From Nitrospira sp. (lineage in GTDB: Bacteria > Nitrospirota > Nitrospiria > Nitrospirales > Nitrospiraceae): DNA of 44,337 nucleotides. The stretch spans positions 1 through 44,337 of the forward strand of contig VGXC01000028.1 in the NCBI GenBank assembly GCA_016873495.1, given 5' to 3'. Numbering within the stretch: the stretch's first letter is position 1; every line of letters starts with the position of its first letter. This document shows, one piece after another, positions 19,346-34,457 of the stretch. A model generated the notes under the pieces. It was given only the letters and a program-made list of their open reading frames with translations, had not been told where the DNA came from and did not search any database. The position numbers were made by a program, and so were the translations under genes.

Positions 19346-19403
19346 GCTCCACCTACCTTCCTGTTCGCGCCGCCTGCCGCGGCCGTATCCGATCACGAGG
19401 CTC

Positions 19404-19432
19404 ATAATAGTCCTAGCTAGAACTAAAGTCAA
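19404..19432 (-). promoter_or_regulatory. sigma-70 promoter with palindromic operator, pirin operon
   Basis: Minus strand: TTGACT (19432-19427), exactly 17 bases, TATTAT (19409-19404), ending 58 bases before the pirin start. The spacer contains AGTTCTAGCTAGGACT (19424-19409), a 16-base palindrome with one mismatch. A regulator bound there would block RNA polymerase, so repression by a dimeric helix-turn-helix protein is likely. No regulator gene is adjacent. Confidence 0.75.
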
Positions 19433-19501: not shown

Positions 19502-19507
19502 TAGAAT
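19502..19507 (+). promoter_or_regulatory. -10 hexamer six bases before a start codon
   Basis: TAGAAT, then ACCGCC, then the ATG at 19514. With the usual distance from -10 to transcription start, the mRNA would begin at or beside the ATG. No clear -35 and no Shine-Dalgarno sequence are present. Confidence 0.45.
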
Positions 19508-19513
19508 ACCGCC

Positions 19514-20416
19514 ATGAAATACCGGATCAAGACCGGCGAGGAGTTGGCCTGGCTGCTGGACCATACCCACGCCTTTCAGGGGGGCCAGGTAACCGATTTG
19601 CACGTCCGCAAGCAGCGGCTCTTTGACGAGTCCACGGGACAGCACATCACGGCAGGCACCACCATCACCGCCATCATCCGCTACGACCTGGCGGTCCGGG
19701 GCGACGCCGGACTCTATCCCCTTACGCGCGTGGCCAAGCTGACGATGGCCGGGGCCACGGACTTCTCGATTTTCGAGCAAGAAGGGGCGGACTGTTCCGA
19801 GATCGGAACCATCCATGCCGAAACGTCCGGGGGCCGGCTCCGGTTCTGGTTCGATCCGCACGGCGAGCTGTACGTCATTTGCGATGAAGCGATGCTGGAA
19901 GAAGTCTCCGTGCCGGGTGCCGGCCGACCCAGCCGCACCGGGATGACCGAATGGACCTTTCAGGCCTCCGCCGGCGGCCTCCCAACCGTGAAATGGCTCT
20001 TGGACCACTTGGATCGGACCGGGGTGCCTTGCACCTGGCAGGCGGGAAAGCGCTCGTCCGGGGCGCACCAAACGTTGCGGTGGGAAGGCCGCCTGGTGTC
20101 GGCACCCTACCGGCCCCGCGGGAGCCAAGGCCAGCCCCGGAGCGGCGGCGTGCTCGTCCAGGCCTACGGGCCGCTCGACGGTTGCGCCTTCGTAATCGCG
20201 CTCCGCGCCGCCTCCCCCCAGGACGGTGCGACCGGCCGGCTGTTCATCGCCCTGGCCGACCTCATCGCCCGCAGCTTTCCGGGCATGTGCCTCACCGGCG
20301 ATCAGGTGATGGACGGGGAGGAATGGCTGGGACACGGACTGGACGGGAAACCGGCCCCGCGGGGCGCGCCGGATCAGGCCGGAGAAGTCATTCGTCGGAT
20401 GCAACCGGCGGAGTGA
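19514..20416 (+). CDS. conserved-looking protein of unknown function
   Basis: A 300-residue soluble protein with no signal peptide, membrane segment or motif I recognise. The N-terminal part (RIKTGEELAWLLDHTHAFQGGQV) and the middle (GGLPTVKWLLDHLDRTGVPCTW) share a LLDH pattern, perhaps a weak internal repeat. The frame is long, uninterrupted and follows the local GC-rich codon use, so it is a real gene. It stands alone on the plus strand, divergent from the pirin operon, and has a -10 element directly before the ATG without a ribosome binding site, so a leaderless mRNA is likely. Confidence 0.7.
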   Translation: MKYRIKTGEELAWLLDHTHAFQGGQVTDLHVRKQRLFDESTGQHITAGTTITAIIRYDLAVRGDAGLYPLTRVAKLTMAGATDFSIFEQEGADCSEIGTIHAETSGGRLRFWFDPHGELYVICDEAMLEEVSVPGAGRPSRTGMTEWTFQASAGGLPTVKWLLDHLDRTGVPCTWQAGKRSSGAHQTLRWEGRLVSAPYRPRGSQGQPRSGGVLVQAYGPLDGCAFVIALRAASPQDGATGRLFIALADLIARSFPGMCLTGDQVMDGEEWLGHGLDGKPAPRGAPDQAGEVIRRMQPAE

Positions 20417-22555: not shown

Positions 22556-22564
22556 TGGTATGAT
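22556..22564 (+). promoter_or_regulatory. extended -10 directly before the IMPase start
   Basis: TGG plus TATGAT (22559-22564) form an extended -10. Six bases (CCGCGC) separate it from the ATG at 22571, predicting a leaderless transcript. No convincing -35. Confidence 0.5.
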
Positions 22565-22570
22565 CCGCGC

Positions 22571-23380
22571 ATGCCGACTCCTATTCTTCCCTCACCGTCT
22601 GTTCGCGCGAAACTCAAGGCCACGGCCCTGGAAGCGGCCAGGGTGGCCGGTTCCATCCTGACCGACGCGGCCAGCAACGGATTCCACGTCGAATACAAAG
22701 ACTCGGTCAACCTGGTCACGGACGCGGACCGGCGGTCGGAGCAGGCCGTGATCGAGGTAATCCGCAAGACCTTTCCGGAGCATCGGATTTTAGCCGAGGA
22801 AGGCGGCGCGCAAGCGGGCGGCGATCCGGATTACCGGTGGGTGATCGATCCGCTGGACGGCACGACCAACTTCGCCCACGGGTTTCCCGCCTACTGTGTG
22901 TCCATCGGCGTGGAATACCGGGGCCACTGCATCTTCGGCGTCGTGCTGGACCCGACGCGGCAAGAGCTCTTCACCGCGGAGACGGGGAGCGGAGCCTTCC
23001 TGAACGGGAGCGCTCTGCATGTCTCCCGCACTCCGAGGCTGGACCAGGCGTTATTAGTCACCGGATTCGCCTACGACATCCGCGTCAGCGCCCAGAACAA
23101 CCTGGACAACTTTTCGCGCTTTGCCCTCACGGCGCAAGGCGTTCGCCGTACTGGGACGGCGGCCCTGGACATGTGCTACGTGGCCGCCGGCCGTTTCGAC
23201 GGCTTCTGGGAACTCAAGCTGCACCCCTGGGACACGGCGGCCGGCCTGGTCATCCTGCGCGAGGCGGGCGGGCGCGTCACCGACTTCAAAGGCACGCCCT
23301 ATTCCATCTACGAACCGTCCATCGTGGCCAGCAACGGCCTGATCCACGAGGAAATGTTGGAGATCCTTCGCCGCACGTGA
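22571..23380 (+). CDS. suhB: inositol-1-monophosphatase family protein
   Basis: A 269-residue member of the magnesium-dependent inositol monophosphatase family. The metal-binding signatures are complete: ILAEEGG, WVIDPLDGTTNFAHGFP and, near the end, HPWDTAAGLVILREAGG. It removes phosphate from inositol-1-phosphate or related sugar phosphates; a role in ribosomal RNA processing as in Escherichia coli SuhB is possible. The start at 22571 is chosen for the -10 placed six bases upstream; an in-frame ATG at 22553 has AAGGAG at a long spacing and is the alternative. The next gene overlaps its stop by 4 bases. Confidence 0.88.
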   Translation: MPTPILPSPSVRAKLKATALEAARVAGSILTDAASNGFHVEYKDSVNLVTDADRRSEQAVIEVIRKTFPEHRILAEEGGAQAGGDPDYRWVIDPLDGTTNFAHGFPAYCVSIGVEYRGHCIFGVVLDPTRQELFTAETGSGAFLNGSALHVSRTPRLDQALLVTGFAYDIRVSAQNNLDNFSRFALTAQGVRRTGTAALDMCYVAAGRFDGFWELKLHPWDTAAGLVILREAGGRVTDFKGTPYSIYEPSIVASNGLIHEEMLEILRRT

Positions 23381-27735: not shown

Positions 27736-28743
27736 CTACTCGTCGTCGGGAGCGCCGCCAGACCTAGCGAGGTCGTCCATCTTGATTTTTTCGGGATTGA
27801 ACTTGCTGGCGGCCTTCGTCATCCGGTCCAACGCGTCGTCGAAGGACAGGGGCTCCGCCTCTTTCGGACGGAACCGCACCGGGTTGATCCGCGCCACCAC
27901 GAAACTTTTCAGGTAGGGACTCGTCAGGCCCTTGGCCTTCAAGGCCTCGACTTGCCGGATCACGACATCGTCCAAGGTCAGCAAGCCCGTGGCCCGTTCC
28001 TGCCGGACTGTAAGCGCCGCGTGCAGCGGCTTTTTCAAGAAGGCCTCCACGCGCTTCAGCACCGGCTGATAAGCGCCGCCGCTGAAGCGGGGCCGCTGTT
28101 CGTAACAGAGCCCCAACGTGATGAAGGACGGCTCTTCGAACTCCAGCGCGTAGGTCTCTTCCGTCGCGCCATCCAGCCGGGCCAGTTCCTTGTACATGCG
28201 GATCACTTCCAGGGCCTTCTCTCGAAGATTGTGGGCCTTCTCGGTGTTCAGCGCCAGAATCTGATAGGCTGCCGCGGCCTCCGGTACGACGATGGCGGTG
28301 ATACTCTTGGCGCCCAGGGTGATCATGGCGGAGAGCCGATGGTGGCCGTTGGGCGTCCAGTACCTCACGTCCCCCTCCGCCCCTGCCTTGGCCCGCACCG
28401 CGATGATCGGGTCCAAAAAACGGCCGAGCTTGCCGATCACCCCTTCGAGTTTACGCACGTGGGTATCGGACAGATTTCTCTGATAGGGAGTCGGGGCCAC
28501 TTGTTCGATCGGTAGGGCTGCCAGGATCACCCAGCGACCGCCGTACGGCTCGCGATAGAGGGCCAGGACTCGGCCTCCGTCTTCGTCGATCGTCCGGTGC
28601 AACGCCGCCACCTCGCCCGGCGGGGCCGCGGCTTGCAGCTCCGTCGCGGCAAGCCCGGTGGAAGCCCCAGCCGGTTTCCTGCGGCGTCGGGGGGCCCCGG
28701 CGGTCGCTGCCTTCCTGGGTTTCCTGGACTTATTCTCCGCCAT
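27736..28743 (-). CDS. ParB/sulfiredoxin-like domain protein
   Basis: A 335-residue protein. It has a basic disordered start (residues 1-35, Lys/Arg/Pro-rich), then a ParB/Srx-like domain: QVAPTPYQRNLSDTHVRKLE (about 81-100), FLDPIIAVR and the catalytic-type box NGHHRLSAM (about 132-140), where classical ParB has GERR. The region after 160 is helical and unfamiliar. No parA gene is near, so a role in chromosome partition is unlikely. ParB-like domains can act as CTP-dependent clamps, nucleases or kinases; which applies is unknown. It is directly followed by the cyclase gene. Confidence 0.75.
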   Translation of the reverse strand: MAENKSRKPRKAATAGAPRRRRKPAGASTGLAATELQAAAPPGEVAALHRTIDEDGGRVLALYREPYGGRWVILAALPIEQVAPTPYQRNLSDTHVRKLEGVIGKLGRFLDPIIAVRAKAGAEGDVRYWTPNGHHRLSAMITLGAKSITAIVVPEAAAAYQILALNTEKAHNLREKALEVIRMYKELARLDGATEETYALEFEEPSFITLGLCYEQRPRFSGGAYQPVLKRVEAFLKKPLHAALTVRQERATGLLTLDDVVIRQVEALKAKGLTSPYLKSFVVARINPVRFRPKEAEPLSFDDALDRMTKAASKFNPEKIKMDDLARSGGAPDDE

Positions 28744-28815
28744 GACGTGGTATGGTAGGGGAGTCGGTCGACAAAAGAAAGCCCCGCGTCACTCCCAACG
28801 AAAGGCACCAGGCTA

Positions 28816-29484: not shown

Positions 29485-30181
29485 CAGGTCCTCCGTTCCT
29501 GGTCTGCGGCTGAAGCGACGAGGCGGCCGGTGTGCCCGACTTGGTGTCGTCCTTGGGCTCGTCCGGAGGAGGCGCTGGTGGCTTGATCCGGATGTGGGTG
29601 ATGAGACGCTCGACCTCGGTGATGCCGCGGACCTTGTCGTAGACCGCGTCGTATTCCTCCTCCGTCTGCGCGATGCCGAAGAGATAGACGGTCCCGTTGG
29701 TCGCCCGCCAGCGGTAGTTCGGGTACCGGAAGCCGGCGCCGGACATGACGGCGAACTTCACCTTGAGCTCGATCCCCGTATCCCGCACCGATTCGCGCAT
29801 GCCGAAATCTTCCGTGATGTGCAGCTCGTTATAGACCTGGTGGACCCCTTCGACCTTCTTCACCAGCGCTTCGGCTGTCTGATCGTCCCCCGCCGTCTTC
29901 ACCGCCCCCGTCATCAGGACGTCGCCCTGGTACACGTCCACGCTCACCGCCATGAACAGGTCTTTTCCTTCGCCGGCCAGAGTCCGCAGGATAGCGCTCT
30001 TCACCTTGAAGTCGTCGCCCATTTCCCCCAGCGTCCGTTCGTCCACGGCCATTTCTGTCGCCGTAGACGCGACCGAAAACGGTGCGGTGTAGGGGTTGGG
30101 CATGATGAAGCTGCAGCCGGCCAGGAGAGCGGCGGCCAAAAGAAGGACCGGACGAAGGGTGGAGGCCATGAAGGGAAGCAT
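29450..30181 (-). CDS. lipoprotein with two BON domains
   Basis: A protein of about 243 residues with a signal peptide and lipobox LLAGC (Cys about 23) and two BON domains (about 45-115 and 120-190), ending in a Pro/Gln/Gly-rich tail. BON lipoproteins of the OsmY/DolP type bind lipids and help envelope integrity. The start is uncertain: ATG at 30181 or 30169, neither with a ribosome binding site. An intrinsic-terminator-like hairpin with a T-rich tract lies only about 10 bases upstream of 30181, which is unusual and may mean attenuation. Confidence 0.8.
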   Translation of the reverse strand: MLPFMASTLRPVLLLAAALLAGCSFIMPNPYTAPFSVASTATEMAVDERTLGEMGDDFKVKSAILRTLAGEGKDLFMAVSVDVYQGDVLMTGAVKTAGDDQTAEALVKKVEGVHQVYNELHITEDFGMRESVRDTGIELKVKFAVMSGAGFRYPNYRWRATNGTVYLFGIAQTEEEYDAVYDKVRGITEVERLITHIRIKPPAPPPDEPKDDTKSGTPAASSLQPQTRNGGPATSGSDPGNPK

Positions 30182-30190
30182 AGGAGGAGG

Positions 30191-30232
30191 AAAGAAAAAA
30201 AGAAAGCCCCCGAGCCATTGGAAGCCGGGGGC
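30191..30232 (-). terminator. rho-independent terminator (minus strand), possible attenuator
   Basis: On the minus strand GCCCCCG and CGGGGGC (7-bp arms, 30232-30226 and 30212-30206) enclose 13 bases and are followed by TTTCTTTTTTTCTTT (30205-30191). It would end transcripts arriving from ssrA, yet it sits just before the BON lipoprotein start codon. Confidence 0.75.
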
Positions 30233-30702: not shown

Positions 30703-31053
30703 TGGTGGAGGTGGCGGGAATTGAACCCGCGTCCGAAGACCGTCAGCACAACGGATCTACGTGTGTAGCCGATCGTTTTGGTTTCGCAACCGCCCACGCC
30801 CACCGGCAGGCTTAGAACGGCCGCTAGCCCAGTATTGTCTCGTCCTCAGCCGCTGAGCACCAGCTTTGGACCAGCCCGCTGCATCGCGCCCCTTCCACCC
30901 CCGCGGGCCTCAGGCGGAGGGACGTCGCGGTCAGTTAAGCCGCGAGTGCCAGTTCTTGGTTGGCAGTTGCTAGTTTCCCGGAGGTTTAACGAGACCCCGA
31001 GAGCTCGACACGCACCGCTGGCCTCTGAATCCCCGTCGAAGCCAATCACCCCC
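30703..31053 (-). ncRNA. ssrA: transfer-messenger RNA
   Basis: On the minus strand the RNA begins GGGGGTGATTGGCTTCGACG and ends with the T-arm GGGTTCAATTCCCGCC, acceptor strand CACCTCC and an encoded ACCA. The 7-bp acceptor stem GGGGGTG / CACCTCC closes with one G-U pair. Length is about 351 bases, normal for tmRNA. The tag reading frame ends with codons for AACCAAGAACTGGCACTC followed by GCGGCTTAA, giving ...NQELALAA; the resume codon is either GCC (tag ANQELALAA) or GCA two codons earlier (ATANQELALAA). Together with SmpB, encoded 1.4 kb away on the same strand, it rescues stalled ribosomes and tags the nascent protein for proteolysis. Confidence 0.95.
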
Positions 31054-32075: not shown

Positions 32076-32441
32076 TTAGAGGGCGCTGCACGGTTGTCGC
32101 GTCCAATAATTCAACACCTGCTTGCTGTCGAACCTGAGGATATAGTCTATGCAAGGGGCGCCGCCCCGCATATCGCCCCGGATGCCCGGGAACGAGTTGA
32201 CTTCATACCGATAGGTCCAGACCTGGGTCTGGTCCGGGAGTGTTTGGGTCTGGTGAGGCTCTCCGAGCCGTTCCTTGATCTCCCCTTGGGTCGCATGGCC
32301 ATTGGCCTGCCCCAGATACTCATACTGTGACGGCATGCAAGCGGCCAGCGAAAGCGTCAGGCCTGCGACCACAGTGAACGCCCAACCGCTTGCCGACGAC
32401 GATCCCGATACGACGGGCCTTCCGGTCTCGGTCCCCATCAT
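32076..32441 (-). CDS. small lipoprotein, BamE/SmpA-like fold possible
   Basis: A 121-residue protein with a long N-terminal region, a hydrophobic stretch and a lipobox SLAAC (Cys about 35). The mature part (ATQGEIKERLGEPHQTQTLPDQTQVWTYRY) resembles the SmpA/BamE-type lipoproteins in pattern, but similarity is limited. Its start ATGATG overlaps the stop of smpB by 4 bases and GGGAGG lies upstream, so it is translated with smpB. The 3' end meets a palindromic element. Confidence 0.7.
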   Translation of the reverse strand: MMGTETGRPVVSGSSSASGWAFTVVAGLTLSLAACMPSQYEYLGQANGHATQGEIKERLGEPHQTQTLPDQTQVWTYRYEVNSFPGIRGDMRGGAPCIDYILRFDSKQVLNYWTRQPCSAL

Positions 32442-32935
32442 TTCCTCCCTTGGTCGCCGCGGCGATCGCTCTTCATCGCCCGCTCCACCTCGCGACTCGC
32501 TTCGCGGCCCTTGATCGCCTCACGACGGTCGTGCTGCTTCTTGCCTTTGGCCAGGGCGAGTTCCAGCTTCGCCTGGCCGCGGGGGTTGAAGTACAGCCGC
32601 AGCGGCACGAGCGTGAGGCCTTTCTGCTGAGTCTGGCCCAGCAGGCGGCTGATCTCCTTCCGGTGCAGCAAGAGCTTGCGCGGCCGGAGGGGATCGTGAT
32701 TCATGATATTCCCGTGGCTGTAGGGGCTGATGTGGCAGTGATGAAGGATCACCTCGCCGCGCTGATCCACGCTGGCGTAGCTCTCCTTCAGGTTGACCAG
32801 GCCGGCGCGTAAGGACTTGACCTCCGTGCCTTTCAGCACAATCCCGGCTTCCAATTTCTCTTCGATGTGATAGTCGTAGAAGGCCTTCCGGTTTGAGGCC
32901 ACGACCTTCTCGCCGCTTTCCTTTTCCTTCGCCAT
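32438..32935 (-). CDS. smpB: tmRNA-binding protein SmpB
   Basis: A 165-residue SmpB, the protein partner that places tmRNA in stalled ribosomes. Typical stretches are VVASNRKAFYDYHIEEKLEAGIVLKGTEVKSLR, SPYSHGNIMNHDPLRPRKLLLHRKEI and LVPLRLYFNPRGQAKLELALAKGKKQHDRRE. The basic C-terminal tail needed on the ribosome is present. It overlaps a lipoprotein gene by 4 bases and lies near ssrA in the same direction. Confidence 0.96.
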   Translation of the reverse strand: MAKEKESGEKVVASNRKAFYDYHIEEKLEAGIVLKGTEVKSLRAGLVNLKESYASVDQRGEVILHHCHISPYSHGNIMNHDPLRPRKLLLHRKEISRLLGQTQQKGLTLVPLRLYFNPRGQAKLELALAKGKKQHDRREAIKGREASREVERAMKSDRRGDQGRK

Positions 32936-33131
32936 AGGCCGTCACTATAGCATGGAGACACCGGACACCTCGAGAAAATGGCTCTCCCTTACACGATGTA
33001 TGAGCGCAAAAAACCAGGGGTTTCGATCTAATCGCGTGGAAATACCCTGGCGCTATGAGTGCTATTGCGGTAGGATGATACCTGATTGGGCTCCACCTGG
33101 CACCGCTCCTCCCAACAGGGCGCAAGGGACC

Positions 33132-33494
33132 ATGGAGTATACGATTACGACTCAGCTGCGCGACAATGTCCTTGAGATTGCGATCTCGGGGACAGGCGGC
33201 CGGGAGAAGGCCGATGTCATCGCCCTTGACGTGATCGCGGCGATCCGCGCCACGCAAGCCGTCAGGACCCTCATCGATCTCCGCCGCCTCGAAGGCCGTA
33301 TGGGCGTGGCGGACACCTTCTTCCATGTGAGGCGTTACCCGCTCGACCTGAGACACGTGAGAACTGCGATTATCGATTTGAAAGAGCACGCGGCATTTAC
33401 TTCGTTTTTCGAAACGACCGCTTCGACCCTCGGTTTTTCCATCCGCCATTTCAATGAGACCCCCGACGCCCTCGCCTGGCTTCAATCCGAATAA
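33132..33494 (+). CDS. SpoIIAA-like (STAS-related) protein
   Basis: A 120-residue protein with the alternating strand-helix pattern of the SpoIIAA-like/STAS group: TITTQLRDNVLEIAISG, TLIDLRRLEGRMGVADTFFHVRRYPLD and HVRTAIIDLKEH. In this lineage such proteins occur alone; a partner anti-sigma kinase is not visible here. The start at 33132 has AAGGGA upstream. A possible -10, TAGGAT, lies about 60 bases upstream. Confidence 0.65.
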   Translation: MEYTITTQLRDNVLEIAISGTGGREKADVIALDVIAAIRATQAVRTLIDLRRLEGRMGVADTFFHVRRYPLDLRHVRTAIIDLKEHAAFTSFFETTASTLGFSIRHFNETPDALAWLQSE

Positions 33495-33676: not shown

Positions 33677-33848
33677 GGTAGCAGAGGCTTGAGCGGAATT
33701 CGCCGGAGGAGCGGGGCGCCCATCGAGACTTTGCCAGGAAGGAAAGCGGAAACTGACTGAGTCCGCGAGGGAATTTCCGAAAGCTTCCGCCTGGCAAAGT
33801 CCGAAAGGGCCGCTCCGGGAGGCGCTGAAGCGAAGGGCCCTGCTGCTC
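33677..33848. repeat. large imperfect inverted-repeat element
   Basis: GACTTTGCCAGG (33727-33738) and CCTGGCAAAGTC (33790-33801) are perfect 12-bp arms. Outside them the flanks (GTAGCAG...GGAGCGG and CCGCTCC...CTGCTGC) also pair imperfectly, giving arms of about 50-60 bases around a 51-base centre. Non-coding; lies just upstream of the dciA promoter. Confidence 0.6.
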
Positions 33849-33879: not shown

Positions 33880-33908
33880 TTGACCGCTCCCTCCTTCCCG
33901 CCTACTAT
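33880..33908 (+). promoter_or_regulatory. sigma-70 promoter of dciA (leaderless arrangement)
   Basis: TTGACC (33880-33885), exactly 17 bases, TACTAT (33903-33908), then CCGTCC and the ATG at 33915. Transcription should start at or next to the ATG. No Shine-Dalgarno sequence is present. Confidence 0.7.
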
Positions 33909-33914
33909 CCGTCC

Positions 33915-34457
33915 ATGCGCAAGCCCTCGCCCTTTTCCTCTGTGTCCACGGTCCTAGCCACGGTCGCCAAGCGGATCGGGTTAGAGACCAAGCTCCTGGA
34001 GTTCCAGCTCCGCCGGGATTGGCCGAACATTGTCGGCCAGCCGATCGCCGCCCACACGAGGCCCGATCAAATCCGGTTTAAGAAGCTCTATCTGCTCGTG
34101 GAAAATTCCGTCTGGATGCAGCAGCTCACGTTTCTGAAACCGACGCTGCTGGCGAAGATCAACGAGGCGGCGGGGACTGAGCTGGTCACGGAGATCGTCC
34201 TGCGGATCGCGGAACTCGGCGGCGCGGCCGGCGGGGGCGGGCGGGAGAACGTTTTGAACGATGATGAAGGCCCTCCTCCGGAACCCACGGCTGAGGCCCT
34301 GGCGGCGGCAGCGTCCCATGCGGAATCCATCCGAGATCCGGAGCTGCGGACGCACCTGACCAAGGTCATGGCCGTGGCGATCGCGCGCGAAAGTAGACAG
34401 GGGCGGGAGATGCAGGCTCCCGTTACGGAGCCTCAGGACCGGAAGCAGTCTTCGTGA
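33915..34457 (+). CDS. dciA: DciA family helicase loader (DUF721)
   Basis: A 180-residue DciA, the ancestral loader of the DnaB helicase in bacteria without DnaC or DnaI. The N-terminal DUF721/KH-like domain is intact: EFQLRRDWPNIVGQPIAAHTRPDQI, KLYLLVENSVWMQQLTFLKPTLLAKIN. The C-terminal half is disordered and rich in Gly, Glu and Ala, which is usual. Its place close to gyrA, dnaN and dnaA fits its role in replication start. A consensus promoter lies directly before the ATG. Confidence 0.9.
   Translation: MRKPSPFSSVSTVLATVAKRIGLETKLLEFQLRRDWPNIVGQPIAAHTRPDQIRFKKLYLLVENSVWMQQLTFLKPTLLAKINEAAGTELVTEIVLRIAELGGAAGGGGRENVLNDDEGPPPEPTAEALAAAASHAESIRDPELRTHLTKVMAVAIARESRQGREMQAPVTEPQDRKQSS

Follow-up and report, generated by a model that had tools for sequence, protein, structure and literature searches.

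Promoters abutting the start codon predict leaderless mRNAs for dciA and a small set of other genes in a Nitrospira genome

Introduction

Nitrospira-type bacteria include nitrite oxidisers. In the Nitrospira sp. genome studied here (3.19 Mb in 89 contigs), the promoter of dciA lies so close to the ATG that the locus raises three questions: whether the mRNA would begin with the start codon itself, whether other genes are arranged in the same way, and how large such a class would be. The window that we analysed is the whole stretch of 44,337 nucleotides (positions 1-44337 of contig 28). The original prediction had named three genes in it, dciA, a gene at 19514 and a phosphatase gene at 22571, and had proposed a regular class of leaderless mRNAs with a fixed spacing of six bases between the -10 element and the ATG. 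We compared the upstream regions of these and other genes within the family, the order and the phylum, and counted the arrangement in a genome sample.

Materials and methods

Single-genome counts were made on a sample of 844 kb, about a quarter of the genome, in which 763 genes were called and 762 were usable. The gene caller was our own coding-score model, and its start positions are rough. Orthologue pairs were built with G011, a relative from another genus. Of the 763 called genes, 403 had no match in the sampled part of G011 and 34 failed the coverage/uniqueness filter; the 326 pairs kept have a median protein identity of 71%, and a further 21 without a joint start were dropped, leaving 305 orthologue pairs. 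Starts of the pairs were picked from the coding signal, the start-codon type and the alignment, blind to the upstream motif. The syntenic G011 stretch was fetched deliberately, so 21 of the 305 pairs come from the window.

The family survey covered 60 genomes, our own included, with dciA found in 54/60, the phosphatase gene in 58/60 and the 19514 gene in 55/60. The 30 loci compared per gene are the best-scoring ones, with our own genome among them, rather than a random draw. Their common descent means that the counts across the family are not independent. One locus each was unusable for the 28743 gene, smpB and the pirin gene (n=29). Searching named genomes with DciA gave four loci; three belong to Nitrospiraceae, Nitrospirota or Nitrospirae metagenome genomes, and the two nearest are 90% and 84% identical. 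L023 and L024 share their upstream 60 bases with L048 and L049; L023-L025 were compared for the upstream region and the start and kept out of the tallies, and L026, from a Bdellovibrionales genome, was left out. For the phylum survey of dciA 100 genomes were drawn, 92 had a match, 76 of these lie outside the family, and 20 of the 76 were read.

Results

The dciA promoter

Direct reading of the DNA gave the following features, and the promoter originally described for dciA is correct to the base:

33880-33885, plus strand: -35 element TTGACC of dciA, 17 bases before the -10 element
33903-33908, plus strand: -10 element TACTAT of dciA, 17 bases after the -35 element and 6 bases before ATG 33915
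33915-34457, plus strand: dciA, predicted leaderless, with a conserved start (DciA, PF05258, E 2.3e-23)

All 30 family loci have TANNNT within the range of 5-9 bases before the dciA start, in each case at 5-7, with six the commonest spacing (27/30), and 16 five-base control windows further upstream hold the motif in 0-1 of 30 loci. The orthologous proteins in these loci go down to 49% identity. The DciA domain begins at residue 10, and 11 of 14 substitutions in codons 2-20 fall at third positions.

Promoter anatomy differs between these loci. A -35 hexamer matching TTGACA at five or more of six positions, with no TGn, is present in 9/30, and TGn without such a strong -35 in 18/30, two of the 18 having a four-match hexamer; the two occur together in no family locus, and 3/30 have neither. 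Read as promoters, these regions represent two interchangeable designs of dciA, -35 and extended -10, which swap between lineages with the predicted -10 element fixed in place.

Upstream of dciA there is an inverted repeat (33718-33810) with 21-nt arms, 81% complementary and 51 nt apart; a stretch overlapping its end (33801-33843) has a 43-nt relative on contig 8, 84% identical. An ORF of 120 aa (33132-33494) without an NCBIfam match lies between smpB and dciA. In some other genomes (e.g. G004, G025, G042, G045) smpB and dciA point away from each other, and only some 50-150 bp separate their matches.

The 19514 gene and the phosphatase gene

The same six-base spacing was confirmed by direct reading at the two other genes named originally:

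19502-19507, plus strand: -10 element TAGAAT of the 19514 gene, 6 bases before ATG 19514
19514-20416, plus strand: 19514 gene, protein of 300 aa, predicted leaderless
22556-22564, plus strand: extended -10 element TGG-TATGAT of the phosphatase gene (TATGAT at 22559-22564), 6 bases before ATG 22571
22571-23380, plus strand: inositol-monophosphatase family protein, predicted leaderless (Inositol_P, PF00459, E 6.9e-77)

The 300-aa protein has no Pfam or NCBIfam family match. TANNNT is present 5-9 bases before the start in 27/30 family loci of the 19514 gene and in 28/30 of the phosphatase gene, and the 16 upstream control windows hold it in 0-5 and 0-3 of 30 loci, respectively. The spacing of six accounts for 15/30 and 16/30 loci in these two genes and is the commonest one for both. 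Orthologous proteins in the compared loci go down to 46% identity for the 19514 gene and to 60% for the phosphatase. TGn precedes the motif in 26 of the 28 phosphatase loci having it and in 0/27 of the 19514 loci, where a -35 hexamer with at least four matches to TTGACA was found only in 4/27; TGGC, read by eye, stands about 20 bases before the -10 element in many family loci of the 19514 gene.

As claimed originally, the ATGs of dciA, the 19514 gene and the phosphatase gene have no Shine-Dalgarno (SD) sequence, with no SD 5-mer close by. This lack is partly mechanical, because an SD sequence and the -10 element compete for the same bases. An SD-like AAGGAG ends 28 bases before ATG 22571 of the phosphatase gene and would serve the in-frame ATG 22553, 18 bases upstream of the conserved start. 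ATG 22553 is absent in the three genus relatives, translation from it would run through the -10 element, and it is a likely source of mis-annotation. Our own caller placed the phosphatase start these 18 bases too far upstream, an example of how genes with a promoter abutting the start codon can be mis-annotated.

Divergent from the 19514 promoter, the pirin gene has a strong promoter, TTGACT-17-TATTAT (19390-19430, minus strand), 7 bases before GTG 19396. It was considered as a leaderless candidate and judged leadered, because TANNNT was present at 5-9 bases before the chosen start in only 4/29 usable loci and most alignments begin near residue 35; GTG 19396 is not common to most relatives. 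The pirin counts act as a negative control for the family comparison. The motif was also seen before GTG 42836, which opens a weakly scored ORF of 46 aa.

Minus-strand genes with the same arrangement

The original list of three genes was sound for its members and incomplete: it missed two supported genes on the minus strand, smpB and the gene at 28743, and a weaker candidate, a BON-domain gene.

32944-32949, minus strand: extended -10 element TGC-TATAGT of smpB, 8 bases before the ATG (32935)
32438-32935, minus strand: smpB, predicted leaderless or nearly so (SmpB, PF01668)
28752-28757, minus strand: -10 element TACCAT of the 28743 gene, 8 bases before the ATG (28743)
27736-28743, minus strand: 28743 gene, protein of 335 aa, predicted leaderless or nearly so
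30177-30182, minus strand: -10-like TATGCT of the BON-domain gene, 7 bases before the ATG (30169), weaker candidate

For smpB, TANNNT was detected at 5-9 in 18/29 usable family loci, 15 of the 18 with TGn; of the 11/29 loci missing the motif, 10 are the ten lowest-scoring ones. The tmRNA gene (30703-31053, minus strand, tag ANQELALAA) lies about 1.4 kb from smpB. The 28743 gene, whose 335-aa protein has no Pfam or NCBIfam family match, has the motif at 5-9 in 22/29 usable loci; in the seven others it stands at 11-13 in four (a short leader) and at 3 in one, and two have none. In the 22 loci neither TGn (0/22) nor a -35 with at least four matches to TTGACA (0/22) was found, and a CTTTCTTTT-like stretch, read by eye, is present upstream in most family loci. 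Substitutions in its codons 2-20 number 9/6/9 by codon position, with no third-position bias, in a comparison where a length change seems to have displaced one of the three sequences. The BON-domain gene has the motif in 5/6 loci checked, which are the six strongest of 30, the rest being weak BON-domain matches.

The element GGGGCTTTCTTTT precedes both the 28743 and the 30169 genes (28773-28785 and 30198-30210, minus strand). Its 12-base core has only these two occurrences in the whole genome, and a similar stretch precedes the 28743 gene in most family loci; it is perhaps a shared regulator or sigma site. A special sigma factor acting through GGGGCTTTCTTTT was considered and rejected, with no class of genes built on it: in the window, allowing at most two mismatches, 24/100 shuffles reach two matches, and the loose form is not enriched (181 in the 844 kb sample vs 202 in the reversed sequence). 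The loose form followed by TANNNT and a start codon gave only these two genes, none in the reversed control and two cases of unrelated appearance in the G011 sample.

The start codon and the base before it

Within-genus comparisons of the five window genes (14 comparisons) gave 30/12/59 substitutions at positions 1/2/3 of codons 2-20, and 36 substitutions in the last 20 upstream bases vs 241 in the 40 bases before. The start codon is also kept between genera, in agreement with the substitution pattern. The base at -1 is a pyrimidine in 113/125 loci of the five window genes, compared with 64% of SD genes and 57% of non-SD genes in the sample; the BON-domain gene fits this (5/5) and clpS fits less well, with only 18/26. 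In Mycobacterium tuberculosis, C is the commonest base before the transcription start, according to the text available of PMC3898074.

A -35 near TTGACA at 16-19 bp or a TGn, the features by which we recognised sigma-70-type promoters, was found for dciA, the phosphatase gene and smpB, and as a rule neither for the 19514 and 28743 genes. The latter two may depend on a different sigma factor or on an activator, and the stretches upstream of them may be the corresponding sites.

Genome-wide counts and orthologue pairs

The genome-wide check proposed originally, a -10 hexamer at exactly six bases against shuffled controls, gave a weak excess: 8/762 genes vs a mean of 3.9 in dinucleotide shuffles, 8/200 of which reach 8, and 8 vs 4.84 against flanking positions (p 0.12). 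The excess is clear at a spacing of 5-9 (40/762 vs 19.5, reached by 0/200 shuffles), and where the upstream neighbour is divergent it is 22/178 vs 5.3 (0/200 shuffles). Tandem genes with a gap have no excess over flanking positions (11 vs 11.1). A small excess over flanking positions (7 vs 2.8, p 0.024) was seen for genes that closely follow another gene on their own strand, a situation in which promoters are less to be expected.

Among the 305 orthologue pairs, 12 have TANNNT at 5-9 here and within one base of that position in G011. Random re-pairing gives a mean of 0.82 and a maximum of 7, and 0/5000 reach 12; no conserved pair is found at 10-29, other five-base windows give 0-2, and among 13 altered hexamer patterns the count is 0-4 for all but TNNNAT, which gives 8. 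By this comparison, conservation of the predicted arrangement in relatives is beyond chance. Five of the 12 pairs come from the window (5/21: dciA, the 19514 gene, the phosphatase gene, smpB and the 28743 gene) and seven from outside (7/284: a DUF255/thioredoxin-like protein, a Na/Ca exchanger, ClpS, a DnaJ-domain protein, an alpha/beta hydrolase, an LPG-synthase C-terminal domain protein and a GDSL lipase). For clpS, TANNNT is present at 5-9 in 26/30 family loci.

The start is ATG in 12/12 of these genes here (232/305 overall) and in 11/12 in G011, with a few GTG in relatives. An SD 4-mer precedes 1/12 here, vs 150/305 overall, and 1/12 in G011. SD motifs are the chief start signal of this genome (SD 4-mer in 371/762 genes). 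The spacing in the conserved cases is 5-9, eight being commonest in smpB and the 28743 gene and also frequent or commonest in clpS. The original proposal of a regular leaderless class is very likely right in substance: on the 12 conserved pairs a predicted class exists, but it is small, roughly 2-4% of genes, and its spacing is 5-9 rather than a fixed six. Extrapolated very roughly, 2.5-3.9% of about 2,900 genes (763 per 844 kb) would be about 70-115 such genes.

Reach of the arrangement in the order and the phylum

In a neighbouring family of the same order, dciA has TTGACC-17-TAGAAT eight bases before the ATG in both genomes read (2/2), and in a further family TANNNT stands nine bases before the start (two read of four listed). 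These four (G116, G130, G060, G069) are the ones, among the 20 stretches read outside the family, with TANNNT 8-9 bases before the dciA start. TAAGGT at 9 in G072 overlaps an SD-like AAGG and was not counted; of the other 16 stretches, G072 included, 9 have an SD 4-mer 5-10 bases upstream and 7 have neither. The predicted promoter-abutting dciA trait is not phylum-wide, because only 4/20 of the stretches read outside the family have the motif at 8-9.

Discussion

The position of the -10-like elements and their conservation, the promoter anatomy of dciA, the phosphatase gene and smpB, the lack of an SD sequence and the support for the start codons are observed. We consider it highly likely that dciA, the 19514 gene, the phosphatase gene and a small set of others are transcribed from promoters abutting the ATG and initiate translation without a leader. 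According to this proposed scheme, the dciA, 19514 and inositol-monophosphatase genes would have sigma-70-type promoters whose -10 element ends six bases before the ATG, and transcription would start at the A or no more than about 3 nt from it. A start 7 bp past the -10 is preferred at other bacterial promoters where it was measured (PMC5730371, eLife 2017, in the text available), and a start seven bases past the -10 would, at a spacing of six, fall on the A of the ATG and give an mRNA without a 5' leader. Ribosomes would then initiate on the 5'-terminal AUG without an SD sequence. The same scheme is predicted for smpB, the 28743 gene and a small set elsewhere (e.g. clpS), with a possible leader of 0-3 nt. 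Where the RNA begins and how ribosomes are recruited is what we infer from these regions. Three features expected of leaderless genes are found together: a -10 spacing that would let transcription begin at the start codon or at most about 5 bp away, no SD sequence and an ATG. As a 5'-terminal codon ATG is strict in E. coli and not in M. tuberculosis, as stated in the available portion of PMC3898074.

A leader of 1-3 nt and no leader at all would look alike in the sequence, and transcription could start 1-5 bases before the ATG, giving a stub too short for an SD sequence. The 5-9 spread of spacings, the eight that is commonest in smpB and the 28743 gene and frequent in clpS, and the four of 29 loci of the 28743 gene at 11-13 agree with such a stub. 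We consider this stub unlikely: in the three genes named originally six is the commonest spacing (27/30, 15/30 and 16/30), and the pyrimidine preceding the ATG is what a transcription start at its A would lead one to expect. It also differs from a leaderless mRNA in degree only, primary starts at most 5 bp from the start codon being counted as leaderless in the text available of PMC3898074.

If the promoters are real, translation could begin at a downstream in-frame start behind an ordinary leader, as is typical of promoters generally, and the pirin gene looks like such a case. For the genes considered here this is very improbable: third-position substitutions dominate from codon 2 in the five pooled genes, other genera keep the same start, and residue 10 is already within the DciA domain. 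A reading of TANNNT as a remnant left by chance or as a conserved site for a regulator, instead of a promoter, would agree with the missing standard -35 or TGn in two of the five window genes, promoter activity here being read from the letters of the DNA. We regard it as scarcely credible, since the signal is specific to the TANNNT pattern, -35 and TGn exchange in dciA, and different hexamers (TATGAT, TACTAT, TAAGAT, TATCAT, TAGGAT) stand at the same place. For the three original genes the predicted leaderless mRNA remains the best reading, with the motif in 30/30 (dciA), 28/30 (phosphatase) and 27/30 (19514) loci.

A more speculative suggestion, which we hold to be unlikely, is that the Nitrospirales keep an old leaderless set including replication and protein-quality-control genes (dciA, smpB, clpS and the DnaJ-domain gene), kept so for translation when 30S/SD initiation is impaired, e.g. 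in starvation or ribosome stress. If so, smpB, without the motif in 11/29 loci, would be a late or lost member. The conserved, predicted leaderless dciA and clpS and the partly conserved smpB form a short list for asking whether selection favours leaderless translation in a lineage with few such genes.

We found no report of leaderless genes in Nitrospirota in the open literature, subscription papers and supplements being outside the scope of the search, and by title no map of transcription starts in the Nitrospira group. In a Leptospirillum paper, as far as its text was available, 'leaderless' appears solely in the title of a cited work on a protein. Leaderless (TA-led) bacterial genes have been described with a Pribnow-like TANNNT about 10 bp upstream instead of an SD sequence (Zheng 2011, PMC3160421), a pattern which that article, in its available text, gives as typical of high-GC groups, with low percentages in several phyla. 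The genes described here are like them in having TANNNT upstream of the start in place of the SD. Nitrospirae is not among the groups named there as having leaderless genes, and Nitrospira- words are absent from its main text; its row 'Other Bacteria' (8/20), not broken down, may hold a Nitrospirae genome. By GeneMarkS-2, 21.6% of bacterial species were predicted to have leaderless transcription, as quoted in the text available of PMC9581028. Kasugamycin is cited as favouring the translation of leaderless over leadered mRNAs.

The arrangement resembles the leaderless transcripts of M. tuberculosis, with TANNNT promoters, a start at the start codon and C favoured at -1; there, according to the available text of PMC3898074, about a quarter of the genes with a primary start site are leaderless and RNA-mapped, whereas the set here is small and predicted from the genome. 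It is also like the -10-adjacent ORFs of Deinococcus-Thermus, where TANNNT stands about 6-7 bp before the ORF and is conserved between species, but in D. radiodurans nearly one third of genes are -10-adjacent (both from the available part of PMC12340547), compared with about 2-4% in this Nitrospira. Taken together, leaderless transcription is a known mechanism, for which Nitrospirota would, as far as we have searched, be a new lineage.
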